Positions 3,480 to 21,483 of a DNA stretch of 44,929 nucleotides are shown piece by piece; positions within the stretch are counted from its first letter, which is position 1, and the number at the start of each line of letters is the position of its first letter. The stretch is from Gammaproteobacteria bacterium (GTDB lineage: Bacteria > Pseudomonadota > Gammaproteobacteria > Eutrophobiales > Eutrophobiaceae). The stretch covers positions 1 to 44,929 of the forward strand of contig JACORW010000087.1 in NCBI GenBank assembly GCA_016179185.1. The letters are read 5' to 3'. The notes under the pieces are model-generated. The model was given only the letters and a program-made list of their open reading frames with translations. It was not told where the DNA came from and made no database searches. The translations under genes were made by a program, and so were the position numbers.

Positions 3480-5162
3480 ATGCCCGTTCCCCGGTTTCTC
3501 GTCGAACGGCGCGAGGTAATCATCCTCGCGCTGATGCTGGAATCGCTCCACATTGCGTTGTGGGGACCGTTTCCCGCCCCGTCATTGATGCGCGCGGGAT
3601 TCATGATGATCCACCTGGGACTGTTCCTGCTCTGGCAGCCGTTCTGGCGCGGGAACCTGAAACTGGCGTGGTACAACGGATTGCTGTTCATCGGGCTGGC
3701 AATTTTGTTCGTGTTTTTACGGAACTGGTGGCTGCGCGCCGGGTGGGTCATCGTGTTAATCGGCGTCTTCGGCGGCAGCATCGGGACCAGCATCCGCGAA
3801 CGCCGCACCAACCTGCTGGTTTTGGCATTCCTCACGTTTCAACTTGCCATCCCCTGCGCCACAACTCTTTTCAGCGTGTCAATTTCGGACCCGACCCACC
3901 AGGCGTTTGCGATTATCGTGGGGGCCATACCGCTGGTGTTGCTGGCGTTTCCCGTTTCGGGCGCGAGATCCGCGCGCCTCGGCGTGGACCCGGTATATGC
4001 CATCGCGGCGTCCACGCTGGTGACGCTGCTTGTTGTCGGGAGCCTGTTGATCATGTACCGCGGCAGGCTGGACTACCTGACGGCATTGATCTGGACGCTT
4101 ACGGCGATCGGTGGCGCGATGCTCATCATTAGCTGGCTGCTGACACCGCACATGGGATTCAGCGGTCTGGCGCAGCTCTGGCAGCGGGTAATCATCAATG
4201 TCGGCACACCGTTCGAGGGTTGGTTGAGCAACCTTGCCACTGTCTTCACCCGCGCCCAGTCGCCCGGAGATTTTCTGCAGCAGGCGATGAAGGACCTGTC
4301 CACGCTGGACTGGATCGCCGGAGTCCAGTGGGAAGGGCCGGAAGGGACGGGCAGTACCGGCCATACCGCATCGCACAATTCCTTTTTCGCGCTCGATCCG
4401 CTGGCGGTGCGCGTGCATACGCATCTGTGGCTGGGCGGCGCGCTGCACGCCCACTGCCGGCTGCTGGTGCAGGTGATCAACCACTTCTACAGCGCAAAAT
4501 ACCAGGAACGGGAACTTACCCGCCAGGCGCACCTGAGCGCCATTTACCAGACCGGCGCGCGGGTGACCCACGATATCAAGAACCTGTTGCAGTCCCTGCA
4601 GGCGCTGACCAGCGTCATTGCCAGCGACCGATCGGAGGCCGGCACCGTGTCCCGGCAACTGTTGCGGCGCCAGTTGCCGCACCTGACCCAGCGCCTGCAA
4701 CTGGCGCTGGACAAATTGCAGGCGCCCGCCGGCAAACATGGCGACAACGTCTTTATCAAGGACTGGTGGCATGATTTCCAATTGCGCAATCCGGACCCCC
4801 AGACCGCATATCACACGGACATCATCGGGGATCCGCTGATCCCCGTGGAACTGTTCGACAGCGTGGCCGAGAACCTGCTGGAGAATATCCGCGCCAAGCG
4901 GCACGTGGAACCCGACATCCGCACGGAGGCCAGGGTGGTCAGTGACGGGACACGGACCTATATCGAGATGTGCGATTCCGGTTCGGCGATCGCGCCGGAA
5001 AAGGCAGGGCTGCTGCTGAACGCCCCGGTAAGTTCAGAAAACGGCCTCGGCATAGGGCTGTACCAGGCGGCGTTGCAGGCGCAGCGCGCGGGCTACGCGC
5101 TGACACTTGAGTCCAACGAAGAAGGGCGGGTGTGTTTCCGCCTCACGGGAAACGCGAAGTGA
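3480..5162 (+). CDS. Membrane sensor histidine kinase
   Basis: 560 residues. The first 225 or so form six to seven membrane helices. A soluble segment (about 230-350) might be a degenerate GAF-like domain, and a C-terminal kinase core follows. The phospho-acceptor box is ARVTHDIKNLLQSL (His near residue 364). The ATPase part shows an N-box-like ENLLENIRAKR, a G1-like MCDSGSAI and a G2 motif NGLGIGLYQA. The layout resembles kinases that pair with sigma-54 response regulators in exopolysaccharide or pilus control. No response regulator is adjacent; the nearest is at 19974-21410, at the head of the pilus-like operon whose tail faces this gene. It is flanked on both sides by CTTGTAGC-type repeats. 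Pairing with that regulator is inference. Confidence 0.85.
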   Translation: MPVPRFLVERREVIILALMLESLHIALWGPFPAPSLMRAGFMMIHLGLFLLWQPFWRGNLKLAWYNGLLFIGLAILFVFLRNWWLRAGWVIVLIGVFGGSIGTSIRERRTNLLVLAFLTFQLAIPCATTLFSVSISDPTHQAFAIIVGAIPLVLLAFPVSGARSARLGVDPVYAIAASTLVTLLVVGSLLIMYRGRLDYLTALIWTLTAIGGAMLIISWLLTPHMGFSGLAQLWQRVIINVGTPFEGWLSNLATVFTRAQSPGDFLQQAMKDLSTLDWIAGVQWEGPEGTGSTGHTASHNSFFALDPLAVRVHTHLWLGGALHAHCRLLVQVINHFYSAKYQERELTRQAHLSAIYQTGARVTHDIKNLLQSLQALTSVIASDRSEAGTVSRQLLRRQLPHLTQRLQLALDKLQAPAGKHGDNVFIKDWWHDFQLRNPDPQTAYHTDIIGDPLIPVELFDSVAENLLENIRAKRHVEPDIRTEARVVSDGTRTYIEMCDSGSAIAPEKAGLLLNAPVSSENGLGIGLYQAALQAQRAGYALTLESNEEGRVCFRLTGNAK

Positions 5163-5345: not shown

Positions 5346-5373
5346 CCTTCAAGGCAGCTGCCTTCAAGGCAGC
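5342..5373. terminator. Doubled palindrome at the end of the prepilin gene
   Basis: The 17-base palindrome GCTGCCTTCAAGGCAGC occurs twice, overlapping by two bases. The second copy includes the TGA of the prepilin gene (5364-5366). Each unit can form a 7-bp hairpin, or the pair can form a longer one, at the convergent end of two transcription units. It may act as a bidirectional terminator, but there is no T-tract, so this is tentative. Confidence 0.45.
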
Positions 5374-6098
5374 GTACCGGCGGTGACCATCCGGCTGATT
5401 AACAACGGCCGCGTGAGCCAGACCGTGATGTCATCGAAACTCGGTGTCGCGGTCCCGCCCTGATACATAAATGGAGCAATGGCCTCGGTAGTGCCATTCT
5501 CCCCGTCCGCGGTCACATCGGCGCCGGTAGAATAGATGATGGCGATTGCAGGTTGAGACGACGACGTCAGGGAACTTCCGTTTGCGTCTTCGACTGACAG
5601 AATGTCCGTGAACCCAGTCGAGAGGTTGATCTGCACGCTTCCGTCACAGACGTTTTCCGGGCAGGCAAACTCCCTTTCTACTACGTAGCGCCAGTAACCG
5701 TTCATCGGATCGGTGCTGCTGGTCCGCGCCACGCCCCAACTGTCGTATTGATCGACGCCCAGCGTTTTCCATGGAAGATACCCCTCGGCGGGGGCGACAT
5801 TACAAGTGAGGTCCTCGACGCCATAGGCCTTGCCATTGCCATAATCATCATCGTCAGGATCCAGTTCCGTCGTGGGGCAGGGCAATTTTCCATTGATCAG
5901 CGCGTACCCGATCAACGCCTGACGGATCTCTTCCAGCTTTGCCTGCGTGTCATTGCGTTGGCGCGCTTCAAGTTGCGCCGACAACGGAACCAGCAGCCCG
6001 CCCACAACCAGCGAAATGATGAACAGCACCATCGCCAGCTCGACCAGCGAGAAGCCGGCGGATCGCGACGTACCGGCGCTTGCGACCGCCGTGGACAT
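5364..6098 (-). CDS. Type IV prepilin-like protein (FSLVE class)
   Basis: 244 residues with a classical prepilin N-terminus: a short leader ending at Gly15, then FSLVELAMVLFIISLVVGG with Glu at mature position 5, as needed for prepilin peptidase cleavage and assembly. The globular part opens with ALIGYALINGKLPCP, an acidic loop (DPDDDDYGNG) and YLPWKTLG, and contains spaced cysteines. The same LPCP-containing arrangement occurs in the giant pseudopilin upstream, so the two are probably partner subunits. Its ATG overlaps the stop of that gene (TAATG), so translation is likely coupled. It is the last gene of the operon. It is larger than typical major pilins and may be a minor or initiating subunit; whether it forms a filament alone is unknown. 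Confidence 0.85.
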   Translation of the reverse strand: MSTAVASAGTSRSAGFSLVELAMVLFIISLVVGGLLVPLSAQLEARQRNDTQAKLEEIRQALIGYALINGKLPCPTTELDPDDDDYGNGKAYGVEDLTCNVAPAEGYLPWKTLGVDQYDSWGVARTSSTDPMNGYWRYVVEREFACPENVCDGSVQINLSTGFTDILSVEDANGSSLTSSSQPAIAIIYSTGADVTADGENGTTEAIAPFMYQGGTATPSFDDITVWLTRPLLISRMVTAGTLP

Positions 6099-9000
6099 TA
6101 CGGAATAACCGCGCTTAACTGGTCGTTGAACGTGGTGTCCGCATCCGCCCGCTCGAACAATTCTTCCGGGCTGCCGGCTTCCTCGTCAGCATTCTCGCCT
6201 TCGAAGTAGCTTTCGAACGTCCCCGCGCCCCGATTCTGCGTATCCAGTTCCCCGCCCGCCACCACGACCACCGCCTTTCGGTCATTGTGAGTGGTGCCGG
6301 CCGGCACGGGCACTTCCACGTTGATGCAGTCGGTTCCTGCGATGCAGTCGCTATTGATGTTCGCCGACACCGAGTCCGGCGTCAGCGCGTTGCTGTAGGA
6401 GACAAATACATACTCATGCCAGCGGTTGCGCAGGAACCAGCGTGGCAGGTTTCCGTCTTCCGTGTCCTCGACCTCGTTGTCATCCTCGTCCACATCCAGC
6501 AGCAGGCTGATGCCGGAAGCCACGAGGCTGCCCTGGGCGGCTCCGGCGGCCGGGATGGTCACGCTGGCGGTGCCCAACTGGTTGCCGCCGGAATCGAAAT
6601 CCGTAAATTGGATTACCGGATTGACATTGTCGGCCACATCCAGCGCGTCGGCATACTGGGTTGCGCAGTCGGCACCGAACCCCTGGCACACGCTGCGTTC
6701 CACAACACCGGCCGAGGCGTTGTTAATTGCGCTGTCACCGGCCATGCGCATCCGGAACTCCCACTGCCGCTCCTCGACGAAATCATATTGAATGCTGAAT
6801 AACTGCCCGACGGCGATACTGGTCGTAGTGCCGCCTTGCAGGTCCGTGTAGGAAACGCAATCCGCAGAGGGTGCGCCGGTAATCAGGCCCACGGGATTAC
6901 CGAAGCCAGCCGTGTTATATCGTATCGTGTCGCCGGCGCCAATGAACGACCAAAAGTTTGCGCCGGTGCTACAGGCCAGATTGGGCACGGTGGAACCGTC
7001 GGCGGTATAGCTGCCGGTCAGCGGTGTCCGTTTTGATGCAACCAGCATTTGAACCCGGTTCCCTGCGGCAACGGCAAACGGAGTTCCGCCAACCACCTCG
7101 ACCGCACGGACCAGATTCTGGGTGAGCGATGATGCGAGATGGACGATTCCCTCATCCACGGCAGGCTGATCCAGGTTTCTGATCTTGGCGCCCGGCCTGA
7201 CACCGGAATAACTGAAGCGCGTACCGGTGTCGGTAATCTGGTACATCGTGCCGGACTGGGTCACCGATTCCGCTGTCGCGGTAAGAAACCCGGAATCCAC
7301 GAACTTGCCGCTGCAGTGCGCAATGTTGTTGCCGGACCAGATGCAGGCAATGTCGCTGTCCGCCGTGACCGCGTCGGGGTAGGTGGCATCGGCCCCGGTC
7401 GAATCGGAGTACAGCGTGGACTGCTGAATCCAGTTGGTGATCGCGGTGGTGTAGGCGGTGGCGGCGCCCGCCGCGGAAACGGACACCGTATTGCCATTGG
7501 CAGAGGTCAGCGACCATTTCACGGTGAAATCCGTGACGAAAGGTTTCCCCATCTCGTGCACGGGCAGCAGGCCATAGCGCGTGTTCGACGCGGGCAACTG
7601 GCGAATAAGCGCGTAGCTGTCATTTGCCGCGAAGACATTATCGCTACCGCCGTACAGGGAGCTTACCGTAAGGGTCTGGTCATCGGGGGTGCCTATCGTT
7701 GCCACAATGCCCTGGGAGCCGTCGGTCAGATTGCGCACCACATCGCCCGCGACCACTCCCAGCGCGGGAAAATCCGCGCCCGCATCCACGAGCGTCGTGG
7801 TGCCGCTGCCCGCGGAGGCCACACCAATGGCGCTGCGCACGCGATAACTGTCGCCGGCGGTGAACACGACACCGGAATCCCCGTCCAGTTCCACTTCATT
7901 GCCATCAACGGAGATGACCGTGCCGCTGGTGCCGGTGGTGATGTTGTCCACGATGTCTCCGGCCACGACGCCGAAACTTTCCAGGTCCGAGTCGGCATCG
8001 AGCGTCGTGCCGCCGCTGCCCGCGCCGGCGACGCCGTCAAACGCGCCCAGATCCAGCGCCACGGCCTCGATGTAATAAATGTCGTTTTTGGAAAACATGT
8101 TCGCGGCACCGCCTTCCAGGCCTCCCACTGTCACCGTGGCTGCGGTCACGGACGAAACAGTGCCGAAGGAACCGTCGCTGACGTTCCAGACGCGGTCGCC
8201 TGCGGCAACACCGGCGGAGAGGAAATCGGCATTGGCGTCGGTCAGCGTGAGACTGCTCGCCGTGGAACTGGTGTGCCGCCCGGAGAGCCCGTAGCCGCCG
8301 AGACTGGCGCCGTGGCGTCCGCCGCGCCTTGGGTCCACATACGGTTCCAGCCATGGGTACGCCCCCCCGCCCACGTCATCGCGCCAGCTCTCCAGCGTCG
8401 CGCGCACTTCATTGGCAACCCGGGCCTCCACGGCGGCCATGAGTTCCGCGCGCGTGATGGTGAGAATCCGGTCGTTGAAGCACTGGATCTCGAGCTCGTC
8501 GTCATCAAGGCTGCCGTCCGTGCATTGCGGCGGGGAATCCGCTACGGTGCTGGCAGTCACATATTCGCCGTCGCCATTGGTGGCGTTGCCGTCTTCGAGG
8601 TACTCGTCCACCACCTGATACCAGGCGTTTGTGGGTGGGTTCGTTTGCGTGATCTCTTCAACTGCCGTACCACGCCCATCCTGCCCGTCAATGGGCGCGC
8701 CGGGTGCGATGACGATGGCGACAATTTCCTCGTCCGATCCGTCCACTCTCAGTGACGCGAAGGTCTCGCTGTTCATTACGTGAGCGCTCGACTGATTGTT
8801 CTTGTACTCCTGCGCAACTGCATACCACAGCCGCTCACCGGATGAATCAACCAGGTCATCCAGACCAAGATCCCGCGTGGGCAGCCTTCCGATGGTCGTA
8901 CCGGTTGCTTCGGCGCAGTTGGATTGTCCAACCTGACCATCGTCCTGGAGGTTGTCCGCGTCGTCCGGCCCGGCATCCTGATCCGGGCAAGGCAGGTAGC

Positions 9001-9271
9001 CGGGTCCGCGAATGAGATCGCCGCTGTAGATCTCGGGATAATTCACCGCGTACTGAATCAGCGCCTCCTTGGCCTGTTTCAGCGCCTTCTGCGTCTGAAC
9101 GTCCCGGGTCTGCTCTTCTGCCAGTTGATTCAGCTTTCCCAGCAGGGCGTACGACGAACCGACCAGGACGACGAGCAGCAGCGCCAGCAATATGACACCA
9201 CGCTGCCGGCGGCCGCCGCGCAACCCGCGCGGCGGGCGATGAGTTCGCGCTGACGCAGGCGCAACTGCCAT
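6098..9271 (-). CDS. Giant pseudopilin with five internal repeat modules
   Basis: About 1,057 residues. The N-terminus GGRRQRGVILLALLLVV resembles GspK/PilX-type pseudopilins: a basic leader, likely cleavage after Gly25, a helix at about 26-44, and no Glu at mature position 5. Next comes an ALIQYAVNYPE...YLPCPDQD region shared with the following prepilin gene, and then about 700 residues of extracellular-looking, Thr/Gly/Asp-rich sequence. Five modules of 65-75 residues recur at about 332-402, 416-480, 486-555, 671-745 and 760-830. Each has an ADF-like start, GVxAGDxVxN and a late GDSY/NDSY-like turn. The start at 9271 was chosen because it follows the previous stop as TGACATG, with GAGGA upstream; an ATG at 9286 is possible. 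It probably caps or decorates a filament; adhesin function is inference. Confidence 0.8.
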   Translation of the reverse strand: MAVAPASARTHRPPRGLRGGRRQRGVILLALLLVVLVGSSYALLGKLNQLAEEQTRDVQTQKALKQAKEALIQYAVNYPEIYSGDLIRGPGYLPCPDQDAGPDDADNLQDDGQVGQSNCAEATGTTIGRLPTRDLGLDDLVDSSGERLWYAVAQEYKNNQSSAHVMNSETFASLRVDGSDEEIVAIVIAPGAPIDGQDGRGTAVEEITQTNPPTNAWYQVVDEYLEDGNATNGDGEYVTASTVADSPPQCTDGSLDDDELEIQCFNDRILTITRAELMAAVEARVANEVRATLESWRDDVGGGAYPWLEPYVDPRRGGRHGASLGGYGLSGRHTSSTASSLTLTDANADFLSAGVAAGDRVWNVSDGSFGTVSSVTAATVTVGGLEGGAANMFSKNDIYYIEAVALDLGAFDGVAGAGSGGTTLDADSDLESFGVVAGDIVDNITTGTSGTVISVDGNEVELDGDSGVVFTAGDSYRVRSAIGVASAGSGTTTLVDAGADFPALGVVAGDVVRNLTDGSQGIVATIGTPDDQTLTVSSLYGGSDNVFAANDSYALIRQLPASNTRYGLLPVHEMGKPFVTDFTVKWSLTSANGNTVSVSAAGAATAYTTAITNWIQQSTLYSDSTGADATYPDAVTADSDIACIWSGNNIAHCSGKFVDSGFLTATAESVTQSGTMYQITDTGTRFSYSGVRPGAKIRNLDQPAVDEGIVHLASSLTQNLVRAVEVVGGTPFAVAAGNRVQMLVASKRTPLTGSYTADGSTVPNLACSTGANFWSFIGAGDTIRYNTAGFGNPVGLITGAPSADCVSYTDLQGGTTTSIAVGQLFSIQYDFVEERQWEFRMRMAGDSAINNASAGVVERSVCQGFGADCATQYADALDVADNVNPVIQFTDFDSGGNQLGTASVTIPAAGAAQGSLVASGISLLLDVDEDDNEVEDTEDGNLPRWFLRNRWHEYVFVSYSNALTPDSVSANINSDCIAGTDCINVEVPVPAGTTHNDRKAVVVVAGGELDTQNRGAGTFESYFEGENADEEAGSPEELFERADADTTFNDQLSAVIP
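6780..8275 (-). repeat. Five protein-level repeat modules inside the giant pseudopilin
   Basis: On the minus strand the modules lie at about 8275-8064, 8022-7830, 7812-7605, 7257-7035 and 6990-6780. The first three are nearly tandem and clearly related (for example GVAAGDRVWN, GVVAGDIVDN and GVVAGDVVRN). The last two are diverged (GVRPGAKIRN and FIGAGDTIRY) and are separated from the others by about 115 residues. The similarity is at protein level; the DNA repeats are not near-identical, so this is old duplication. Confidence 0.75.
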
Positions 9272-9272
9272 G

Positions 9273-9776
9273 TCACTCGTCCTCATCCTCTTCGCTGCCC
9301 GCGGGCGCGGCTGCGGCGACCGGCCCGGTTTCCTCACCCAGATCGCGAATGCGCGCGCTGGCGGGATCATAGGTCTGCCCCACCTTCATCGGCACCGGCG
9401 CCTCCCGATCCGGCAGCCGCACCGCTGCGCGATTCCCGCTGATGCCCGACGTTTCCACCTGCCGATGGGCGGCACCGGCATCGCCCTGGTAAGTGTTGCT
9501 GTCATTGACCCAGGCCGTGCTGCGGCCGGCAGCGCGATCCACGACGCCGCGCAGCGTGAGCGGATTACCGGAGACCGGCGGGGCATCCTGCTTCGCGGGC
9601 GCGGCCGGAGTCGCGGCCGGCCGGGGCACAACCTCTTCCCTGACCTGGTCCAGTTGCGCGCGTTCTCCGGATGTCGTGAACAATCGCCCCAGATCATCGG
9701 CCGCGGACGCCCCTGGCCCCAATGCAGCCAACACAACGATCAACAAGCCCTGGAATCCGGTTTCCGGCGCCGTCAT
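9273..9776 (-). CDS. MshK-like periplasmic pilus biogenesis protein
   Basis: About 167 residues: a signal peptide with likely cleavage after ASA (residue 25), then LGRLFTTSGERAQLDQVREE, a Pro/Ala linker, the block TLRGVVDRAAGRSTAWVND, and an acidic tail. This RLF...QR..LD and RG.V.R..G..T.W.N pattern belongs to the small periplasmic protein found after the PilO/MshJ-like gene in MSHA-type clusters. It may link the inner-membrane complex to the secretin. The frame is open further upstream, but the ATG at 9776 overlaps the previous stop (ATGA) and gives a clean signal peptide, so it is preferred. One base separates its stop from the next start. Confidence 0.7.
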   Translation of the reverse strand: MTAPETGFQGLLIVVLAALGPGASAADDLGRLFTTSGERAQLDQVREEVVPRPAATPAAPAKQDAPPVSGNPLTLRGVVDRAAGRSTAWVNDSNTYQGDAGAAHRQVETSGISGNRAAVRLPDREAPVPMKVGQTYDPASARIRDLGEETGPVAAAAPAGSEEDEDE

Positions 9777-10402
9777 GTCTCCACCTTTATCTCCCTGCCA
9801 TCGGCCAGCTTGATGGTAAACCAGTTCATATCGCACTGGATGCCGATGTTTGCCTTGTCCCCGCTGACCGTATCCAGCACCTGTCCAAGCCTGTTCATGC
9901 GGCACGCATGCACGGAGTAATGCCCCGCCGCGCGCGTATCCAGCAATTGCAGCAGGCGCAGCAGGTCGCCCTCGTGCAACGCCTGGATGTTCAGCGTCAT
10001 TTCACTGCCATAGAGCTGATAGTTTCCGAGTGACACCGGGAATGAGGGCGCGTACGCCCCCTGGGAACTTATTTCGTAATTGAGCGACGGAATGCGCAGT
10101 CGCTCGCCGGCATCGCGCAGCGTTTCGATCCAGTTCAACCGCTCCTCGCGCCCGATGACTCCGCCGCGATAGAGTTCCAGGAACCGGGGGAAGAATTTCT
10201 TGATCTGTTTTTCCTCCTCGTCCACCGCCAGGTATTTGCCGCTGATCCCCTGAAACAGCGAATTGTTGCGCGTGAATTCCAGTTGCTTGCTTTTCACCAG
10301 CGCATGGCCGCCGCCGGCCAGCAGGCCGCTCGCGACGGCACACAGCACAAAAGAAATCAACGCGCCGCGCAGCACCTGCCAGTCAATGTCCTCACGCCTC
10401 AT
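9773..10402 (-). CDS. PilO/MshJ-like inner-membrane assembly protein
   Basis: 209 residues: a short cytoplasmic start, one membrane helix (about 14-34), a coiled region (VDEEEKQIKKFFPRFLELYR) and a C-terminal ferredoxin-like fold typical of PilO/GspM/MshJ proteins. It would form part of the inner-membrane alignment complex with the preceding GspL/PilM-PilN-like protein. Its start overlaps that gene by 11 bases and its stop overlaps the next start by four, indicating coupled translation. Assignment rests on size, topology and position rather than on a catalytic motif. Confidence 0.75.
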   Translation of the reverse strand: MRREDIDWQVLRGALISFVLCAVASGLLAGGGHALVKSKQLEFTRNNSLFQGISGKYLAVDEEEKQIKKFFPRFLELYRGGVIGREERLNWIETLRDAGERLRIPSLNYEISSQGAYAPSFPVSLGNYQLYGSEMTLNIQALHEGDLLRLLQLLDTRAAGHYSVHACRMNRLGQVLDTVSGDKANIGIQCDMNWFTIKLADGREIKVET

Positions 10403-12017
10403 GGCCTACTCCCAACACGATCCTCAGCGAGAACACCGCCTCCGCCTTCGTTGCCGAACTGCTGCCCTGCAGATTGGCGCTGGAACTGATGTCCAGCGGC
10501 AATGACAGCACCTGCACTTCGCGCACGTCCGGGGAGGCGCGCAGCGACTCGGCCAGAGCGTCAATGGCGCCGATGGCCTTGCGAAAATCGCCGTCAAAGG
10601 GCGCCAGGCGGCCATTGATCTGCGCAATCTGGTAGAAGCGGTAGCTCGGCTGCGGCGCGCCTGGCTCCGCTCCCGGTTGCGGCCGCGACTCCGGTCCGGC
10701 CGGGGCATCGCCACCACCCCTGCGGCCCTCCAGTTGCGCATTCGGATTCGTGCTTGCGATCCAGTCCAGGGAATCCAGTTGCACCTGCGGATGCCGCAAC
10801 AACTGTCCGCCCAGCAGGCGAAGCATCTCGCGCGGCGAGGTCTTGTATTGCCGCAGCGTATCCGCGAGTTCCACGGCGAGCTGGATTTCGCCGGATTCTA
10901 CCGGGGTATTCGGTAGCCGCTCGCGCGCCATGTCGTAGCGGGCCGAATAGAACTGCGCCTTCCTGACGGCCGCATCGCTGCGCTGCTTCAAATCCATGGC
11001 GTCCATGAAGTCCACTCCGCCCCACGCCAGTCCGCCGATCAACAGCGCGGCGCCGGCGGCGAGCAGGCCGTGCCGGACCGATCGCATCGCGGCGTAGCGC
11101 CGGTGCGTCCGCGTAGCGTAGACATTCGCGGGCCGCTCGCGCAGCATTTGATGTACCAGCAATTGATCGGCAAACGGCGCGGCGACGCGCCGTGCGGAAC
11201 CCGACTTCGCAAGCAGCTCATTCAGGTCCATGACGTGGTGCCGCATCAGGCTCGAATCCTTGCGGGCCCCGCGCAGCTCTTCCAGCAGCTCCGCGGTCAG
11301 CATGTAATAAACGTCAATGGGGTCGTCGGGCGATACCAGCCGCAGACTGTTCAGGTAGCGCCGGATCTTCTCCATCTCTTCGTGGATGAGCGGGCCGTAA
11401 GGCGCGGTGCCGTAGCGGGGCAACTGCACCAGGCGGCTGATGCGGAACTGGCCCTTTTGGATGAACGTCTGGCGCAGGCCGCTGATGCTGTGCAGGCTGA
11501 TCAGCAGCACGTTATCCCGCGTCTCCGGCAGCAGACCGAGCAACGCGGAGCTGAACAGCGGGACGCTGACGATCCCGGCCACGGGAACCTGGTGCTCATC
11601 CAGCAGCCGCAGCCAGGGGTCGAGCAGCGCCGGATTGGTGATGGCACTGATCAATATCCGGTCGTCGCGCCGGCCCTCTTCCTCCCGGCCCTGCATCGTG
11701 TAGTTGAAATACGGAGTATCGCGGAACAGCCGCGCCTTCCTGCGCGCAACGATGGCCTCCCGGTCGCCGCCGAAAACGTGCGGAATCGTCTCCGCGCGAA
11801 ACTCTTCCTCGAATACGTCCGCCAGCACATGCATCGGATGATTCGGAGTCTCGACCAGGTACCGGCCAAAGTGCTCGCGTCCCTGGGTGTTGGCGTCAAA
11901 CAGAAACGCACTGCCGAGATCCCCCTTGCGCCAGTGATAGACCGCGGCCTTCTGGGCACCCAGAAACAGCGCGCGCCGGGCGCCGAAATCAAATCTTGAT
12001 CTTGGTGATAAGGTCAT
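10392..12017 (-). CDS. GspL / PilM-PilN-like assembly protein (MshI position)
   Basis: 541 residues. The first 300 or so form a cytoplasmic domain in the position of the actin-like PilM/GspL-N fold. A membrane helix follows at about 313-335 (LLAAGAALLIGGLAWGG), then a periplasmic PilN-like region with a coiled segment and a Pro/Gly-rich insert. Proteins of this layout recruit the motor ATPase to the membrane and bind the PilO-like partner. The ATG lies 29 bases inside the end of the MshG-like gene. A single polypeptide here replaces the separate PilM and PilN of classical type IVa pili, as in MSHA and type II systems. Confidence 0.75.
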   Translation of the reverse strand: MTLSPRSRFDFGARRALFLGAQKAAVYHWRKGDLGSAFLFDANTQGREHFGRYLVETPNHPMHVLADVFEEEFRAETIPHVFGGDREAIVARRKARLFRDTPYFNYTMQGREEEGRRDDRILISAITNPALLDPWLRLLDEHQVPVAGIVSVPLFSSALLGLLPETRDNVLLISLHSISGLRQTFIQKGQFRISRLVQLPRYGTAPYGPLIHEEMEKIRRYLNSLRLVSPDDPIDVYYMLTAELLEELRGARKDSSLMRHHVMDLNELLAKSGSARRVAAPFADQLLVHQMLRERPANVYATRTHRRYAAMRSVRHGLLAAGAALLIGGLAWGGVDFMDAMDLKQRSDAAVRKAQFYSARYDMARERLPNTPVESGEIQLAVELADTLRQYKTSPREMLRLLGGQLLRHPQVQLDSLDWIASTNPNAQLEGRRGGGDAPAGPESRPQPGAEPGAPQPSYRFYQIAQINGRLAPFDGDFRKAIGAIDALAESLRASPDVREVQVLSLPLDISSSANLQGSSSATKAEAVFSLRIVLGVGHEA

Positions 12018-13194
12018 AGATGGGTCCCAGCACGGACATCATCACCCAGCCGATGATCACGCCGAGGATCACGGTCATCGTGGGTTCGATCATGGACTGC
12101 AGCCGCTCGATGGCTTCCTTCACGTCGCGGGTGTAGAAATACGCGACGTTTTCCAAAGACGTTTCCAGCGCACCGGTGCTCTCTCCGACGCGGATCATCC
12201 GCAGGATCAGCGGCGGGAACAGCCCGGTGGACGCAAAGCTGTCGCTCAGGTTCTTGCCGTCGGCGATCTGCTGGCCCACGGCGCGCACGGCATTTTCAAT
12301 GACCTTGTTGCCGGCGATGTCCTCGCTGGTGCGGATGCAGTCAATGATGGTGATGCCGGAGGCGTACATCATCGCGAAGAATCCCGCCAGCCGGGCCAGG
12401 ATGATTTTCTGCAGGATGTTGCCGAACACCGGCAGCCTGAGTTTCATTCGATCCACGGCCAGCCGGATGCCGGGATTGACGCGCGCGCCTATCATCACCA
12501 GCGCGACAATGACTGCCGGCCCCAGGATCACCGCGTACCAGTAATGCACGAAAATGCCGGATACGAAGATCAGCGCCTTGGTATGCCCGGGCAGTTCCTG
12601 TCCCATGGTTTTCACGAACGAAACGAGCTGCGGAACCAGATAGATCATCAGGAAAAACAGCACGCCGATGACCACGGTGCCGACGAACGCCGGGTACATG
12701 ATCAGTTTCTTGGCCTGGGCGGCCTGCTCATCCTGCCATTTCAAGCTCTCCCCGAGCCGCCGGAATACTTCACCGATGTTTCCGGACTGCTCGCCGGCCC
12801 TGATCAGGCTGCAAAGGACATTTTCGAACACGCCGGGGAAATCCTGCATTGCCTGGGACAGTGTCTTGCCGCCGGAAATGGACTCGGTCATCGCCGACAT
12901 TACTTCGCGCAGGCGCGGATTCTCCGTGCTGTCCCGCAAATCCTGCAGACTGTCCAGGATCGGCACACCGGCGCGCGAGGTCTGCTCCATGTGAAAACAG
13001 AACAGGATCAGATCGCGACGCTTTATGCCGCGGCCGGAGGCGGTTTTCCCCCTGGTCCGTATCTCGGTGCAGTTGACCAGATCGAGGCCGAGTTTGCGCA
13101 GGCGCATCTCCAGGTCGGCGACGTTTACGGCATCCGACTGCCCGACCTGGACGCGGCCGAATTGATCGATCGCCTTGTACTGGTAGAAATCCAT
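11989..13194 (-). CDS. mshG: Inner-membrane platform protein (GspF/PilC/MshG family)
   Basis: 401 residues, the usual family length. The N-terminal YQYKAIDQFGRVQVG is typical. Two GspF domains (about 65-190 and 270-390) carry related motifs, LSQAMQDFPGVFENVLCSLI and LSDSFASTGLFPPLILRMI, each followed by an Arg/Gly/Glu segment (RAGEQSGNIGEVF and RVGESTGALETSL). Three membrane helices are evident. This polytopic protein couples the ATPase motor to pilin insertion in the membrane. It follows the ATPase gene by six bases, the standard E-F gene pair. Confidence 0.95.
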   Translation of the reverse strand: MDFYQYKAIDQFGRVQVGQSDAVNVADLEMRLRKLGLDLVNCTEIRTRGKTASGRGIKRRDLILFCFHMEQTSRAGVPILDSLQDLRDSTENPRLREVMSAMTESISGGKTLSQAMQDFPGVFENVLCSLIRAGEQSGNIGEVFRRLGESLKWQDEQAAQAKKLIMYPAFVGTVVIGVLFFLMIYLVPQLVSFVKTMGQELPGHTKALIFVSGIFVHYWYAVILGPAVIVALVMIGARVNPGIRLAVDRMKLRLPVFGNILQKIILARLAGFFAMMYASGITIIDCIRTSEDIAGNKVIENAVRAVGQQIADGKNLSDSFASTGLFPPLILRMIRVGESTGALETSLENVAYFYTRDVKEAIERLQSMIEPTMTVILGVIIGWVMMSVLGPIYDLITKIKI

Positions 13195-13200
13195 GGCGCG

Positions 13201-14916
13201 CTATTTCTGCTTCAGGCGTTGCGTGAGATCCACGACCCGCGAGATTTCCTCGAGACTGGTGGAGCCGTCCAGCACGCGCTGCGCGCCGGCATCGGCCAGG
13301 GTGCGAAAGCCCTTGGACAGCGCCATGCGCAGGAATTCCCGCGGCGTGCCGCGGCGCGCCAGCAACTCGTCAAGATCCGGATCGAACTTGAGCACTTCCA
13401 TCACGGCTACCCGCCCCCTGTATCCCTGCTTGTCGCACTTGACGCATCCCCTGGGCCGGTAGATGGTCTGCTGCCGATCGGTGACCTTGAGCCCGAGCAG
13501 CGAACGTTCCAGGTCGGAAACCTCATGCGCCTCCTTGCAATGGCTGCACAGCTTGCGCACCAGGCGCTGCGCGATGATGCCGATGATGTTACCGGCCAGG
13601 ATATCCGGGGCCACGCCGATATCGAGCAGGCGCGGGATGGCGCCGAGGGCGGAATTCGTATGCAGCGTCGAGAACACCTGATGGCCGGTCATCGCGGCGC
13701 GCAATGCCATGCTGGCCGTGTCCTCATCGCGGACCTCGCCGACCAGGATGATGTCCGGGTCCTGCCGCATCATGGAGCGGATGCCGCTGGCAAAGTCCAG
13801 GCGCGAGGTTTCGCTGACGGAGGTCTGCCGGATCATCGGCGTCGGATACTCAACCGGGTCCTCCAGGGTCATGATGTTGACCGACTCGGTGTTGAGATAG
13901 TTCAGGATCGAATACAGCGTCGTGGTCTTGCCGCTGCCGGTGGGCCCGGTTACCAGAATGATGCCCTCGGGACGCGCCACCATCAGTTTTACCTGTGTCT
14001 GCTCATCGGGCCGCAGGCCGAGCTCTTCCAGCGTCACGATGCCCTTCTGCCGGTCGAGCACGCGCAGCACGATATTCTCGCCGTGCACGGTCGGCAGCGT
14101 GGACACGCGAAAATCCACACGGCGGCCGGACAGCGACAATGAAATGCGCCCGTCCTGCGGCGCGCGCGTCTCGGCGATGTCCAGCCCGGCCATGACCTTC
14201 AGGCGCACGGCGATCGCGGCCCAATAGTTCTTGTGCAGGCTGCGGATCTGGCGCAGCACGCCGTCAATGCGATAGCGAAAGCGCAGAAATCCTTCTTCCG
14301 GCTCGAAATGGATGTCGGAGGCACTGCTTTTCACCGCGTCCGACAGCAGCGCGTTCACCAGCCGCACCACCGGCTGGCTGTATTCATCGGAATCGGCGTC
14401 CAGGCTCTGGTAATCGATCTCGCCGGTCTCTATCTCCTTCAGGATGCCGTCCACGGACAACTCGAAACCGTAGAACTGATCGATGGCCTTCTGGATCTCG
14501 GCCTCGCCGGCCAGCAGCGGCATGACATCGAGATTGCCGCCCAGCTGGGCATTGAGCTGATCCAGCACCACGACGTTGAAGGTGTCCGCCATCGCCACGG
14601 TCAGCGTGTTTTCCGCGGCGTTTAGCATCAGCGGCAAAATCTTCAGCCGGCGCGCCATATCCTTCGGCACCATGCGTATCGCCTCGCTGTCCGCCACGGT
14701 GCGGGCCAGATCCACGCTCTCCTGGCCGATCACCCCGCCGATGACGTCGCGGATGATGGCCTCGGTGGCGAATCCCAGTCGCACCAGGATCTTGCCCAGA
14801 TGCTCCTTGGTACGGCGTTGCTCGGTGAGCGCGATGTCGATCTGGTCCGGGGTCGTAACGCCGCGATGGACCAGGATCTCGCCCAGCCGCTGGTGTTTCT
14901 TGTGCGGGCCGGTCAT
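13201..14916 (-). CDS. mshE: Assembly ATPase (GspE/PilB/MshE family)
   Basis: 571 residues. The N-terminal 150 or so match the MshEN/GspE-N type domain (LGEILVHRGVTTPDQIDIAL and a second similar repeat), which in MshE relatives binds cyclic di-GMP; binding here is not shown. The motor part has Walker A GPTGSGKTT (about residues 323-331), an acidic Asp box (TLEDPVEYP), Walker B DIILVGEVRDEDTA, a His box (STLHTNSA) and a four-cysteine zinc site (CSHC ... CVKC). It powers pilin extrusion in the cytoplasm. It starts two bases after the TPR gene and just ahead of the platform gene. Confidence 0.95.
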   Translation of the reverse strand: MTGPHKKHQRLGEILVHRGVTTPDQIDIALTEQRRTKEHLGKILVRLGFATEAIIRDVIGGVIGQESVDLARTVADSEAIRMVPKDMARRLKILPLMLNAAENTLTVAMADTFNVVVLDQLNAQLGGNLDVMPLLAGEAEIQKAIDQFYGFELSVDGILKEIETGEIDYQSLDADSDEYSQPVVRLVNALLSDAVKSSASDIHFEPEEGFLRFRYRIDGVLRQIRSLHKNYWAAIAVRLKVMAGLDIAETRAPQDGRISLSLSGRRVDFRVSTLPTVHGENIVLRVLDRQKGIVTLEELGLRPDEQTQVKLMVARPEGIILVTGPTGSGKTTTLYSILNYLNTESVNIMTLEDPVEYPTPMIRQTSVSETSRLDFASGIRSMMRQDPDIILVGEVRDEDTASMALRAAMTGHQVFSTLHTNSALGAIPRLLDIGVAPDILAGNIIGIIAQRLVRKLCSHCKEAHEVSDLERSLLGLKVTDRQQTIYRPRGCVKCDKQGYRGRVAVMEVLKFDPDLDELLARRGTPREFLRMALSKGFRTLADAGAQRVLDGSTSLEEISRVVDLTQRLKQK

Positions 14917-14918
14917 GT

Positions 14919-16604
14919 TCAGGGCGTTGCGGCTCCGGACAGGGACTGGATGCGCGCCAGGACGGCGGCAGGATCGAAGCCGGCGGGGCGCTGCTCCCCA
15001 AGCCTGAGGGCGGTGTTGTAATAGTCGAGCGCGGCCTGCCGTTGGCCGATTCGATCCAGACTGACGGCGAGGTTCAGCGCATAATCCGGGTTCGAGGAAT
15101 CGGTCCGGTGCGCCTCGAAAAAGGCCTGCTGCGCCTCGGGCCAGCGCTGCTGGGCGGCATAAATGCCGCCCAGCGTGAAGTACAGGAACGGTTGTTCGGG
15201 ATTTTCCTGGATCAATGTGTTGACGGCGCTCTCGGCGCCACCTATGTCGGCGCTCTTGTTCAGCCCCACGAGCACGGCCAGCGCAGTCTTGTTGGCCGGA
15301 TCGAGCCGCAGGACGCGGCCGTGGAACTGCACTGCCGTGCCCGTTTCCCCCTGGCGCAGCGCGATGGCGCCGATGCCGAGCAAGGCGTCGAGATTGTCGG
15401 GCGACTCATTCAATACCGCGAAATATACGGCCCGGGCACCGGTCAGATCGCCCGCCTGGTACAGTTCGTAGGCCTCCCGGACCATGCGTTCCTCGTCCCT
15501 TGGCCCGGCAGTGCGGCTGATACGTACCAATGATGGCGCGGAAGCAGCCATGGCGGTGGCTGCGATCGGCGCAGGCGGGGTGGGGGCAGCGACCGGTTCG
15601 GCCGGGACCGGTCCGGGCGCGGGTTCCGGTCCGGCGGCCGGTGTCGTCGCTTCCACCGCCGCTTTCGGCCCGGGTGACGCGCCGGCGATTTCCGGAGAAT
15701 CAGCCGTCGCAATCGGGATCTGGGCTGTCCGTTCGACCGTCGCCGCCGTGCCCGGAGGGGTCGGTGGCGCGACGCCTTCCACCGGCACGGCGCCGGGCAA
15801 CTCCATGGTGCCGCCGGCCGGGAAAGCCGATTCGCCGCGCGGCGCGGGCACGCTCTCTATGCCCCGGGCGACGAGGGGCGAGGGTACATTACGCGCCACC
15901 GGAGTCACGGTGAAGTAGACCCAGACCCCGGCCGCAGCCAGCATCAACAACGTAAGACCGCTGAGCACCCATTTGATACCGGAACCCGGGTCTTCCCTGG
16001 ATCGCCCGGCAACGAACACGGTCTCCGCGGCAACGGGTGTGGGCTGATCCCGGGTGCCGATGTCCCTGGCCATCTGCAGCGCCGAAACGCCGGGCAGCGT
16101 CTGATCGTATCCGCCGGCCTCGCCGGATCCGGCCAGGTCACCCCGAACCGTCTCTTCAAACATGCCGGGGATCGCGCGCGGCACAGCATCCGCCTGGACT
16201 CCCTGGAAAGTCTTGTCGCCGTCAAAGCCTTCCTCCGCAATCAATTCGCCCGCCAGACCCGACGGGGACGGCGCCGCCGGAATCACTTCGGGCTGGCTCG
16301 TGTTCAGCTCCATCGAATACAACCGCTCGCCCGTGACGTTCAATGTCGGCAGGTCACCGGCGAGGGCGGATTCGACCGCCGGCGTCCCGGAGTCCGCTGC
16401 TTCGGACGGTGTGGCAAATTCGCCGGATACCGGCGTGAGACTGAGTTCCCGCGGGCCGGACGGCGGAGACTTCGGCCCAGGTGTCGCTGGACGCTGGTCC
16501 GTGGAGTCGGCATCCGCCGTCGGCGGCGCGGATTCCTCCAGCTTGCGCGCGGCATCGCGCTTTTCCTGTTCCGCCTTCTTCAGGGCGTCCATCAACAGGC
16601 TCAC
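14919..16604 (-). CDS. Membrane-anchored TPR protein of the pilus operon (MshN position)
   Basis: 561 residues. It opens with MSLLMDALKKAEQEKR, a conserved cytoplasmic helix of secretion-associated TPR proteins, followed by about 190 residues of disordered Pro/Ser/Glu-rich sequence, one membrane helix (about 210-232), a Pro/Ala-rich periplasmic linker and at least four TPR units (about 370-540, for example AYELYQAGDLTGARAVYFAV and ALNLAVSLDRIGQRQAALDY). It occupies the MshN slot between secretin and ATPase genes and probably bridges the inner membrane to the secretin. It is separated from the secretin gene by six bases. The family is clear; the exact partner is inferred. Confidence 0.8.
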   Translation of the reverse strand: MSLLMDALKKAEQEKRDAARKLEESAPPTADADSTDQRPATPGPKSPPSGPRELSLTPVSGEFATPSEAADSGTPAVESALAGDLPTLNVTGERLYSMELNTSQPEVIPAAPSPSGLAGELIAEEGFDGDKTFQGVQADAVPRAIPGMFEETVRGDLAGSGEAGGYDQTLPGVSALQMARDIGTRDQPTPVAAETVFVAGRSREDPGSGIKWVLSGLTLLMLAAAGVWVYFTVTPVARNVPSPLVARGIESVPAPRGESAFPAGGTMELPGAVPVEGVAPPTPPGTAATVERTAQIPIATADSPEIAGASPGPKAAVEATTPAAGPEPAPGPVPAEPVAAPTPPAPIAATAMAASAPSLVRISRTAGPRDEERMVREAYELYQAGDLTGARAVYFAVLNESPDNLDALLGIGAIALRQGETGTAVQFHGRVLRLDPANKTALAVLVGLNKSADIGGAESAVNTLIQENPEQPFLYFTLGGIYAAQQRWPEAQQAFFEAHRTDSSNPDYALNLAVSLDRIGQRQAALDYYNTALRLGEQRPAGFDPAAVLARIQSLSGAATP

Positions 16605-16610
16605 GACTGA

Positions 16611-18275
16611 TTACCTCGTCACGGGGGGTGAAACGACGCCTCGTTGTTCCTGCAAGAATTTCTGGTAGGGCTTCAGGTCGGCTTCCAGGCTTGGATTACG
16701 CACCACCAGCGGCCGCAGAAAGATGACCAGCTCGGTCTTGCGCGACTGGCGCGTGCGACTCTTGAACAGTTCGCCCAGCCCCTGGATCCTTGAGACTCCC
16801 GGTGTGCCCGCGTCATCCGCCTGGTCGTTGTTCTCCATCAACCCGCCCAGCACCGCGATCTGGCCGCTGTTCAGGCGCAGCACCGATTCCATTTCGCGCG
16901 CACGCAGTTCCGGCACGCCGGGATTCGGGATCTGCACCGGGGGCGAGCCGCCCTGCTGCAACTGCGCCTGCAGAATGGCGACGCCCGGATCCGGCACGAA
17001 GCGCAACACCCTGGAAATCGCAGGCCGGATGTTCAGAATGATCGAATCGTTGGAATTGATCTGCGGGGTCACGCTCATTGTGACGCCCACAGAAACGGTT
17101 TTTGCCTGCGAGTCCACGGATGTGACGGTGTTTGTCTGGGACTGCGATACGTCGGAATCCAGCTCGTAGTAGACGATATCGTCGGCCACCTTGAGCGTAG
17201 CGGTCTGATTGTTGAGTGTCATGATCTGGGGCGTGGACAGGATCCTGACGTCCCCGAATTCCTCCAGCAGGCGCACCTGTGCATCTATGACATTGCTGCT
17301 CTGCTTCGCCGGATCCTCCGTGTAGTCCAGCACCAGGCTGGAAAACTCCCCCAGGATACCGACACCGGGCAACAACGCCGACGCCAGATTGAAGGTCGCA
17401 TCGCCTACGTCCACCAGTACGCTCCAGTCGATCCCGGCCTGGAACTTGGTGCTCAACGTCACCTCGGCAATAGTTGCCTGGATCATGACCTGACGCTGCG
17501 CGCTCTCCACGGCGCTGTCCACAAGCTGCTGAATCTGTGTGTGCTGCGCCGCGGTCGCGCGAACGGTAATCAGCCCGGTTTCCGGATACGCAACCAGCGA
17601 TGAACTGTTCCCGGCGCCGCCGGGTTCGCCGCCACCGGCGGCATCACTGATAAGCGCCTGCACGGAGCTGACCAGGGTGTCCCAGAATCTGTTTTTTGAC
17701 TCGACCGATATGTTTGTCGCGCCGGTGCTGGAACCCGCGCCGCCGCCCGCTCCGCCTCCGCCGCCCGTATCCCCACCACCCACGGCAGTCTGCAGTTTGA
17801 TCTGCGCGTCCATCTCCCGGGTCATGCCGAGGAAATTCACCCGGTAGGTACGGAAGAACGGCTCGTCCGGCATGATGAACAGGTTGTCGTTCTGCATTTC
17901 GTAACGGATGCCGACCTGGCGTGCGATGCGATCCAGCAATTGCGTCAAGGTCTGATCCACTGCATTCAGCGTGACCACGCCGTCAATGCGCGGGTCCACA
18001 TCCACATTGACCTTGGCGTCGCGGGCCAGCGCGAACAGGATCTCCTTAACCGGAACCTCGTTCACGACGACCGTGTACTTCTCCTGTGGTTCAGCGACGG
18101 CAGGCTCGGGCAGTTCCGGCGCCGCCTGTTCCACCAGTGGCGGGATACCTTCCTGACCTGCCGCCTCGGCGCCTTCCTGCTTGATGTGACCTGACGAGGT
18201 CTCATAAGGCTCCGGCACCAACTCTGCGCAGCCGAAAATCAACATGGCCATTCCCAGTGTCAGAGCAATGCGCAT
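16611..18275 (-). CDS. mshL: Outer-membrane secretin (MshL/PilQ/GspD family)
   Basis: 554 residues. The N-terminus is lipoprotein-like, with Cys16 in a LIFGC box. An STN-like domain follows (VNEVPVKEILFALARDAKVN, about 70-130), then a Gly-rich linker near 165-185, an N-domain, and the C-terminal secretin barrel with VRILSTPQIMTLNNQTATLK, SVTPQINSNDSIILNIRP and the late RIQGLGELFKSR. Length and order fit the MSHA-type secretin MshL. It would form the outer-membrane gate for the filament or exported subunit. An 86-base gap with an AT-rich, promoter-like stretch separates it from the ATPase gene upstream. Confidence 0.92.
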   Translation of the reverse strand: MRIALTLGMAMLIFGCAELVPEPYETSSGHIKQEGAEAAGQEGIPPLVEQAAPELPEPAVAEPQEKYTVVVNEVPVKEILFALARDAKVNVDVDPRIDGVVTLNAVDQTLTQLLDRIARQVGIRYEMQNDNLFIMPDEPFFRTYRVNFLGMTREMDAQIKLQTAVGGGDTGGGGGAGGGAGSSTGATNISVESKNRFWDTLVSSVQALISDAAGGGEPGGAGNSSSLVAYPETGLITVRATAAQHTQIQQLVDSAVESAQRQVMIQATIAEVTLSTKFQAGIDWSVLVDVGDATFNLASALLPGVGILGEFSSLVLDYTEDPAKQSSNVIDAQVRLLEEFGDVRILSTPQIMTLNNQTATLKVADDIVYYELDSDVSQSQTNTVTSVDSQAKTVSVGVTMSVTPQINSNDSIILNIRPAISRVLRFVPDPGVAILQAQLQQGGSPPVQIPNPGVPELRAREMESVLRLNSGQIAVLGGLMENNDQADDAGTPGVSRIQGLGELFKSRTRQSRKTELVIFLRPLVVRNPSLEADLKPYQKFLQEQRGVVSPPVTR

Positions 18276-18332
18276 GGCAATAACGTCCTATGGATTGAGG
18301 GCTTCCGGCCTTCCCGCGGGTCCGGAAAGAAA

Positions 18333-18338
18333 ATTATA
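18333..18338 (-). promoter_or_regulatory. Possible internal promoter upstream of the secretin gene
   Basis: Read on the minus strand, the 86-base gap contains TATAAT (18338-18333) in a locally AT-rich setting, about 60 bases ahead of the secretin ATG. No good -35 box is found at 16-18 bases. This is the only sizeable gap inside the operon, so an internal start is plausible but weakly supported. Confidence 0.25.
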
Positions 18339-18361
18339 TACCTAATACAAGTCATTCAGAG

Positions 18362-19969
18362 TTATAGACTTTCCGGATCTGATAGCGGCCGGTAAATTAT
18401 TCCCCAGCAATGCTCACAGGGGGGATCCGCCGCGCCGGCCGGTGTCGCCGGCACCTCTTCGGGCGGTCTCCGGCTGATATCCTGCCGCAACTGGGCCGAT
18501 TCCGCGGTGTTCAACGGTGAATTGCCTTCATCCCGCCACAGCATTACCGGCGCTTGATCCGGCCCGTTCTCCGGCACCTCTGCCTGCGGTGAAATACTGG
18601 CAGCGGGCACATCCGCCGCCGTTTCACGCAACTGATATTCCAGCCGCAGACCCGGGTGCGTAAGCGTGGATCCGGCCGGTTCGGCAGAATCGGCCAACGC
18701 TTCCGGCGCCGACATGGCATCAGTCTGGCTGACCTGCTGGAGCTGCCGCTCGGCGACCGCAGGCATGGGTTCCGCAGCCTCCGAAACCGGTCCGCGACCG
18801 GTGATCGGCGCCGCTTCCTCCGCTGCCGGGTTGAGCGAGGCTTCCGGGGTCGCCGCCGCACCGGACTGCTTGACCGGTTGCTGCTGCTCCTCCGGCGCAG
18901 CCATGGATCCGGCGCGTCCCGTCTCAGGGGCCTGGCCGGTGTCGGGCGCGTGTATTTCCGGCACCGCGTCATTCCGGTCGGGCGCGGCGGGGGTCGCGGC
19001 CGGCGGGGTTCCGGGCGCCACGTCCACTCCGACGTTGCCGGCAGAGTCCGGCACCGGTACCGGCGCCGGATTGGTGCCGTTCCACCAGAGGAATACCGCC
19101 ACGACGGCAACCGCGGCGCTACCGGTTGCAACCATCGGCCACCATCTGCGCCCGCTCGCAGCCGGGAATTCGCTGTCCTTGACGGCCCGGGCCACATGCG
19201 CCTTGCTCACCTGAATGTTGCTGTCCGCATAGGCGGCCAGCAGGGATTTGTCCGCAAGGATGTTGATGCGGCGCACCAGGCCCCGTGAATGGTGGGCGAT
19301 TACCTGCACCGCGCCGATGCTGAACAGTTCCGCGGCCCGGCAGCCACAGGCGCGCAGTCTGGAATTCAGGTAATCACGGATGTCGCTGGGCTGGAACGGC
19401 GGCAACTGGAAGCTGTAGGTGATGCGTTCCTTCAACTGCCGGATCTCCGGCTGGGACAGTTTTTCATCCAGTTCCGGCTGCCCGAACAACACGATCTGCA
19501 ATAACTTGTTCTGGCGGGTTTCCAGATTGCTGAGCAGCCTGATCTCCTCCAGCGTCTCGATGGGCATGCCCTGGGCCTCTTCCACGAACACGACCACCTG
19601 CCGGTTTTCGGCATGTCGCTGCAACAGGAACTCCTGCAGGGCATGCATGACTTCGATTCGCGGCGTGCCGGCGGAGAACGGCAGCTTCAATTCAAACGCG
19701 ATGGCATGCAGGATGTTCTCCGGCGCCAGACTCGGATTGGCGAGGTACACGATCTCGACACGATCCGGCAATTCCTGTTCCAGCATGCGGCACAACATGG
19801 TTTTGCCGCTGCCCACTTCGCCCACGACCTTGACGATGCCTTCGCCGTTGCCGACGGCGTAGATCAATGCCTCGAGGATCGCCCCGCGATTCGCCCCCGG
19901 GTAGAACAGCGCCGTGTCGGGCGTAATGCGAAACGGCAACTGCTTCAGTCCGAAGTAATCGAGATACAT
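18362..19969 (-). CDS. mshM: ExeA/MshM-like AAA ATPase with membrane anchor
   Basis: 535 residues. The first 270 form an ExeA/GspA-type AAA ATPase: the opening YLDYFGLKQLPFRITPD is characteristic, Walker A is GEVGSGKT, Walker B is VVVFVEEAQ, and a sensor-like NLETRQNKLLQIVLFGQPEL follows. A membrane helix lies at about 277-296, followed by about 230 residues of Pro/Ala/Glu-rich periplasmic sequence. There is no recognisable peptidoglycan-binding domain, unlike ExeA. Members help assemble secretins through the cell wall. It begins four bases after the response-regulator gene, so the regulator belongs to the same transcript. Confidence 0.88.
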   Translation of the reverse strand: MYLDYFGLKQLPFRITPDTALFYPGANRGAILEALIYAVGNGEGIVKVVGEVGSGKTMLCRMLEQELPDRVEIVYLANPSLAPENILHAIAFELKLPFSAGTPRIEVMHALQEFLLQRHAENRQVVVFVEEAQGMPIETLEEIRLLSNLETRQNKLLQIVLFGQPELDEKLSQPEIRQLKERITYSFQLPPFQPSDIRDYLNSRLRACGCRAAELFSIGAVQVIAHHSRGLVRRINILADKSLLAAYADSNIQVSKAHVARAVKDSEFPAASGRRWWPMVATGSAAVAVVAVFLWWNGTNPAPVPVPDSAGNVGVDVAPGTPPAATPAAPDRNDAVPEIHAPDTGQAPETGRAGSMAAPEEQQQPVKQSGAAATPEASLNPAAEEAAPITGRGPVSEAAEPMPAVAERQLQQVSQTDAMSAPEALADSAEPAGSTLTHPGLRLEYQLRETAADVPAASISPQAEVPENGPDQAPVMLWRDEGNSPLNTAESAQLRQDISRRPPEEVPATPAGAADPPCEHCWGIIYRPLSDPESL

Positions 19970-19973
19970 GGGC

Positions 19974-21410
<1,437 letters not shown>

Positions 21411-21483
21411 CGAATATACCCGCGGGAAACCGGAACAAGCGACGATACGCCCAGCAATTGGCCGCCACAAGGCCGGCGGAACC

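Follow-up and report, generated by a model that had tools for sequence, protein, structure and literature searches.

Modular pilins, including ones with multicopy motifs, are already known; they are the proposed reason why simple filaments can perform many jobs, and many of their extra domains are undefined in databases (PMC8179133). They act as tip adhesins or receptors, and a single motif can be repeated in them, with up to 12 copies in a pilin from Falkowbacteria (PMC8179133). Insertion of a domain into the pilin fold is also known, from ComZ and GspK. In ComZ, the solenoid separates the last strand from the penultimate one (PMC6561018), and a tip placement has been argued for GspK and modular pilins (PMC4471445, PMC8179133). 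Here we analyzed a 44,929-nucleotide stretch of DNA from an uncultured gammaproteobacterium (the window), in which a giant minor pilin carries five copies of a small module. The features of the locus are listed below in window coordinates, all on the minus strand.

6098..9370 (-): giant minor pilin, 1090 aa; open reading frame, homologue of an operon gene kept in 20 of 20 relatives
9044..9199 (-): cleavage-point Gly and long N-terminal pilin helix, aa 58-109; from the sequence and the AlphaFold2 helix 58-109
8321..9043 (-): first part of the pilin head (base domain), aa 110-350; from the N-terminal alignment with the 244-aa pilin of the operon
8063..8275 (-): module 1, site A, aa 366-436; module profile, AlphaFold2 strands 361-435
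7829..8035 (-): module 2, site A, aa 446-514; module profile, AlphaFold2 strands
7598..7825 (-): module 3, site A, aa 516-591; module profile, folded alone at pLDDT 95.9
7268..7597 (-): segment of the base that separates the two arrays, aa 592-701; aligned with module-less orthologues, which share it (TR.G.L..., C.W......C)
7037..7267 (-): module 4, site B, aa 702-778; other-genera profile 15.4 bits, strands 702-776
6782..7006 (-): module 5, site B, aa 789-863; other-genera profile 15.4 bits, strands 798-864
6101..6781 (-): C-terminal base segment, aa 864-1090; kept in orthologues with and without modules
5364..6098 (-): second prepilin, 244 aa, GFSLVELAMV with Glu5 present; PF07963 at 8.3e-5, next gene in 20 of 20 relatives
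9273-9905, 9773-10402 and 10392-12017 (-): MshK-, MshJ- and MshI-like genes; from gene order and conservation, named by position only
11989..16604 (-): GspF/MshG-like protein (PF00482), GspE/PilB ATPase with MshE N-domain (PF00437 and PF05157), and TPR protein (TPR match)
16611..19969 (-): MshL-like secretin (TIGR02519, 221.5 bits) and MshM-like AAA ATPase (PF13401)

The giant pilin begins as a prepilin does, with a leader that ends in Gly and is followed by a hydrophobic N-terminal helix (RQRG^VILLALLLVVLVGSSYALL; residues 58-109 in the AlphaFold2 model). At this N-terminus, RQRG^VILLALLLVV, mature position 5 is not Glu, and Glu5 is likewise absent from every carrier homologue that has a recognized N-terminus. 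A PF07963 search of the giant pilin gave no match; its residues 55-171 aligned with the adjoining 244-aa PF07963 pilin at 31% identity (E 1.5e-7). The predicted start overlaps the mshK-like gene by 98 bases (window 9269-9370), and an ATG at 9271 (aa 34) directly follows the stop of that gene. Because the upstream gene ends at 9273, this ATG is probably the true start, which results in a basic prepilin leader of 25 aa. We also considered whether the base domain arose as a duplication of an N-terminal and a C-terminal half; this was rejected, as the halves have no significant match.

The giant pilin is encoded together with filament assembly machinery, namely a secretin, an ATPase, a GspF-like protein and the second prepilin, which is a candidate filament subunit. 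The order MshL-TPR-MshE-MshG-I-J-K-GIANT-pilin, with the giant followed by the second prepilin, was found in 20 of 20 relatives, whether they have modules or not and to the extent that their contigs cover it, and also in three more families of the class. The secretin scored 221.5 bits with TIGR02519 (MshL), below the curated cutoff of 250.2 and thus a resemblance only, and the MshE-type N-domain of the assembly ATPase matched PF05157 (58.7 bits, cutoff 23.1) and NF053729 (55.8 bits, cutoff 38). Pfam searches with the MshK-, MshJ- and MshI-like proteins gave no match. The operon ends in two prepilins only, and does not contain the mshB-A-C-D-O-P-Q pilin set of MSHA. It is flanked by a membrane histidine kinase-like protein (3480-5162, plus strand) and a sigma-54 response regulator (19974-21470, minus strand), and its MshM-like ATPase also scores with an XrtA/PEP-CTERM-associated ATPase model; given these flanking regulators and the ATPase, a PrsK/PrsR-like control of the pilus is possible. 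Elsewhere in the genome, which is 86% complete, contig 38 carries a separate T2SS-like cluster with four prepilins, a PilB/GspE-type ATPase and a secretin, and contig 47 a FimT/PilV/PilW-like minor pilin cluster; in total, four PilB/GspE-type ATPases and four secretin matches were detected.

In the original prediction, the protein was called a pseudopilin. The MSHA-like operon and the separate T2SS-like cluster on contig 38 make minor pilin of an MSHA-like system the better term, and we corrected the name to this. The alternative is a secretion pseudopilus in which the giant protein would be a GspK-like cap whose arrays recognize a protein exported through the secretin. The missing Glu5 in combination with an inserted extra domain is as in GspK (PMC8179133, PMC4471445), the machinery is GspE/GspF-like, and no PilT-family protein scored above cutoff in the source genome, although the last point is a weak one because only 86% of the genome is present. 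We nevertheless consider a pseudopilus improbable, since a gene set of T2SS makeup exists separately on contig 38, the secretin is nearest MshL and the ATPase has the MshE N-domain, and the giant pilin gave no T2SSK match in Pfam or NCBIfam.

We next turn to the modules of this minor pilin. An iterated module profile over homologues identified exactly five copies of ∼70 residues, and self-alignment of aa 331-800 gave a best score of 211, compared to 39-68 in 12 shuffles. In an independent test with a module profile made from other genera only, and with 2000 shuffles of the giant pilin as the null, modules 1 to 5 scored 78.3, 37.7, 80.3, 15.4 and 15.4 bits, respectively, and the best shuffled domain 5.6 bits. 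The predicted five-copy module at 6780-8275 was therefore recovered above chance, spanning 6782-8275, and so was its arrangement as three copies in near tandem and two that are diverged and offset. Copies 1-3 are obvious, but copies 4 and 5 need homologues to be recognized: against a profile of copies 1-3 alone they scored 4.1 and -1.4 bits, which lies inside the shuffle range, so that their membership rests on intermediate homologues. In two of these (G002 and G035), site B copies match the profile of the first three positions (6.9e-8 and 1.5e-14). Identity ranges from 25/68 to 35/68 within copies 1-3 and is ∼15-20 of 70-74 residues in most pairs involving copies 4-5. The GVxAGDxVxN core is exact in copies 1 (GVAAGDRVWN), 2 (GVVAGDIVDN) and 3 (GVVAGDVVRN) and degenerate in copies 4 (GVRPGAKIRN) and 5 (GAGDTIRY); the late turn reads NDIY, GDSY, NDSY, GNRV and GQLF in copies 1 to 5. 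Searches of Pfam, NCBIfam, PHROGs and PDB sequences with the whole protein or the module returned no significant family that covers the module, in agreement with the initial statement that the domain could not be named.

AlphaFold2 predicted module 3, from 24 aligned modules, as a five-stranded beta unit with a pLDDT of 95.9. The full-length model was of moderate confidence (pLDDT 75.5, pTM 0.71; N-terminal helix at 58-109), and the strand order of the module recurs in it at all five positions. The beta-rich repeating fold that had been predicted is thus seen both in the single module and in the full model, and the outcome named beforehand as refuting it, one continuous fold with no repeating unit, was not obtained. 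Foldseek found no solved structure similar to the module at E ≤ 0.001. The nearest solved folds were the N-terminal barrels of V1/F1-ATPase subunits, with TM-scores of roughly 0.4-0.63 and low identity, followed by pyruvate kinase and phage tailspike domains; several predicted viral proteins matched with a probability of 1.00 and TM-scores of 0.72-0.77 (best E 1.2e-3). From these structural neighbors, the module would be a small beta-barrel. A Foldseek search of the PDB with the full model yielded long matches only, which were meaningless and were set aside.

The conserved residues of the module are D13, F18, G26-D27, N31, TDGS and G-D-x-Y, and these look like turn and core positions; neither an aromatic patch nor a metal site of the sort expected in a lectin is conserved among them. 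The modules are strongly acidic, with a mean net charge of -6.5 over 103 copies and a positive charge in only 6, which disfavors DNA as a ligand. A DNA uptake tip, in which the modules would bind nucleic acid as proposed for ComZ, is for this reason very improbable, even though ComZ, too, is a pilin into which a domain has been inserted in the same way.

Comparison with orthologues at the same place in the operon showed how the modules are placed in the carrier. Site A holds 249 residues in the giant pilin and only 10-13 in module-less orthologues, site B holds 165 compared to 10-18, and a further site C holds 81 residues in some genomes compared to 10-12. Since module-less orthologues have just 10-18 residues at the array positions, the modules are insertions, at three sites, as the original prediction of an insertion into a pilin had it. 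Homologues also differ in copy number, as had been anticipated, with 0, 4, 5, 6 and up to about 7 modules per orthologue; site A mostly has three (four in G003), site B has 0-5 matches and site C 0 or 1. In several genomes the modules are nested, with one complete module between the halves of another (e.g., G008, with matches to model positions 3-38, 1-71 and 40-71). At site B of four loci (L016, L014, L009 and L015), a module is split near the TDGS loop by a complete second module that is its own homologue. Because both halves of a nested module are counted, site B numbers are too high by one in such cases.

Within the family, modules were found in 27 of 53 genomes and 14 of 18 genera. The class sample of 369 genomes contained the carrier family in 71 and modules in nine, eight of them in this pilin and one in a prophage structural protein; among the 398 genomes of the phylum sample, only the source genome had modules. 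A contig scan with the whole giant pilin as query gave no match, and the A2 copy is conserved too little for a pattern scan. In a tree of the modules, A1, A2 and A3 each grouped by position across genomes (18/19, 19/19 and 17/18, respectively), and the nearest neighbor of a module was in its own protein in 0 of 101 cases and always in another genome. This indicates that the A1-A2-A3 triplet is old and vertically inherited, and recent tandem expansion was rejected on the same count. In a tree of MshE, MshG and MshI, the module-less G018 was sister, with a support of 1.0, to G028, a member of the same genus with about six modules; G018 therefore lost all arrays while retaining the operon. Such complete losses in some lineages imply that the arrays are dispensable for pilus assembly.

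These data bear on the main rival to a displayed binding surface, main because the residues conserved in the module seem to be turn and core positions: the modules could be inert spacers that bind nothing and that lengthen or bulk the tip pilin, block subunit addition above it, or distance a partner from the surface. The conserved positions are structural, the operon stays constant across differences in copy number and site, and no known binding domain matches the module, all of which a spacer would accommodate. A pure spacer, however, does not need a fold family kept with position-specific orthology across the family, and module-less orthologues persist in the same operon without any spacer. 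We regard inert spacers as possible, though unlikely.

The module is not confined to this pilin. A scan of IMG/VR returned 21 module loci. The carriers there are a contractile tail sheath protein (PF04984, PF17482), with the module in its interior, a baseplate hub protein, with the module between its PF09931 and PF09356 domains, and a tail fiber-like protein, and the module is often in tandem; tblastn against GenBank phages did not find it. In a prophage (L169, G655:C2:186000-200000), a structural protein with one module is encoded between head maturation protease and tape measure genes. Matches in named genomes were to gammaproteobacterial (or proteobacterial) metagenome-assembled genomes, and in addition to a Gottesmanbacteria protein and a Chloroflexi prepilin. 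The Gottesmanbacteria protein (1025 aa, L064:3409-6483) has one module and no family match, and may be a virion structural protein. The Chloroflexi prepilin, P0005 of JACPQM010000084.1 (L063:5200-7080; PF07963 at 1.1e-8), has one module inserted directly before its final stretch LTYERIF, i.e., before the last strand, and adjoins P0006, a 54% identical pilin without the module, so that the two form a natural insertion pair. This pilin acquired the module independently. The presence of the module in a pilin head and in virus tail proteins suggests one reusable surface part common to pili and phages. A stronger version, which we put forward only tentatively and hold to be doubtful, holds that the module is surface-exposed and promiscuous: it would travel between the virion proteins of phages and the tips of bacterial pili, would have been grafted independently onto pilins of at least two phyla, and would serve pili and phages alike as one interchangeable attachment part with the same binding task.

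Taken together, the architecture of a pilin carrier with inserted repeated modules is well supported. We favor, with moderate confidence, the reading of a modular minor type IV pilin that belongs to an MSHA-like pilus and whose acidic beta-barrels would be displayed at the tip, where they would act as a stalk or provide a binding surface. The carrier would consist of the hydrophobic helix and the head, with barrel arrays inserted at two points of the head, three at site A and two at site B. Because it lacks Glu5 and has several hundred extra residues, the giant pilin would sit at or near the filament tip and cap the filament. The barrels may then project outward as a stalk and a multivalent surface for binding a cell, mineral, polysaccharide or matrix, as in known modular pilins. 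The proposed stalk or adhesive function rests on the architecture and on the precedent of modular pilins that have been studied (PMC8179133, PMC6561018). Since the arrays are naturally present or absent within one genus, their function is directly testable, and the neighboring Chloroflexi pilins offer a natural pair with and without the module.

Several described systems resemble this one in part. The nearest solved folds of the module, the F1/V1-ATPase N-terminal barrel and the pyruvate kinase B domain, likely have only a common small-barrel topology with it. Ig-like and other insert domains of phage virions are also small beta domains inserted, often in tandem, into sheath, hub and fiber proteins, as is the module there; however, the module has no significant Ig-like Pfam match (best Big_2, 0.058, in one of 24 modules), its nearest folds are small barrels, and the carrier here is a pilin. 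CofB and TcpB are large minor pilins, located at the tip and with extra beta-rich parts (PMC8179133), but they form type IVb trimers whose C-terminal domains are a beta-repeat and a beta-sandwich. Tip (pseudo)pilins of the GspK/PilX type share the absence of Glu5, a large inserted domain and a probable role as filament cap; their inserted domain is alpha, whereas that of the giant pilin is all beta, Pfam gave neither a T2SSK nor a PilX match for the giant pilin, and the operon is MSHA-like, with the T2SS-like cluster apart on contig 38. Thermus thermophilus ComZ also has a beta-rich domain within the pilin fold (PMC6561018) and, like the Chloroflexi relative, carries its insert before the last strand, but this is one large beta-solenoid and a proposed DNA binder, in contrast to the separate acidic barrels in tandem described here.

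PilB and PilC of Streptococcus sanguinis (PMC8179133) likewise consist of a pilin carrier and an added non-pilin module that the filament displays. In those proteins, a known domain (vWA or lectin) follows the pilin module, whereas the giant pilin has an unnamed barrel in multiple copies at several internal sites. As for other modular pilins, the extra module is not specific to pili, being found also in the tail sheath, the baseplate hub and a prophage structural protein. One of the extra domains of modular pilins now gets a definition, a predicted fold and a family-wide history, in which the A1-A2-A3 triplet is old, sites B and C have changed, copies have become nested and whole arrays have been lost. 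As far as the searched libraries show, three things are new relative to these systems: the unnamed module itself, its insertion at more than one site and in places nested, and its occurrence both in pilins of two phyla and in phage tail proteins. The last of these links pilus tips and phage tails via a common insert domain.
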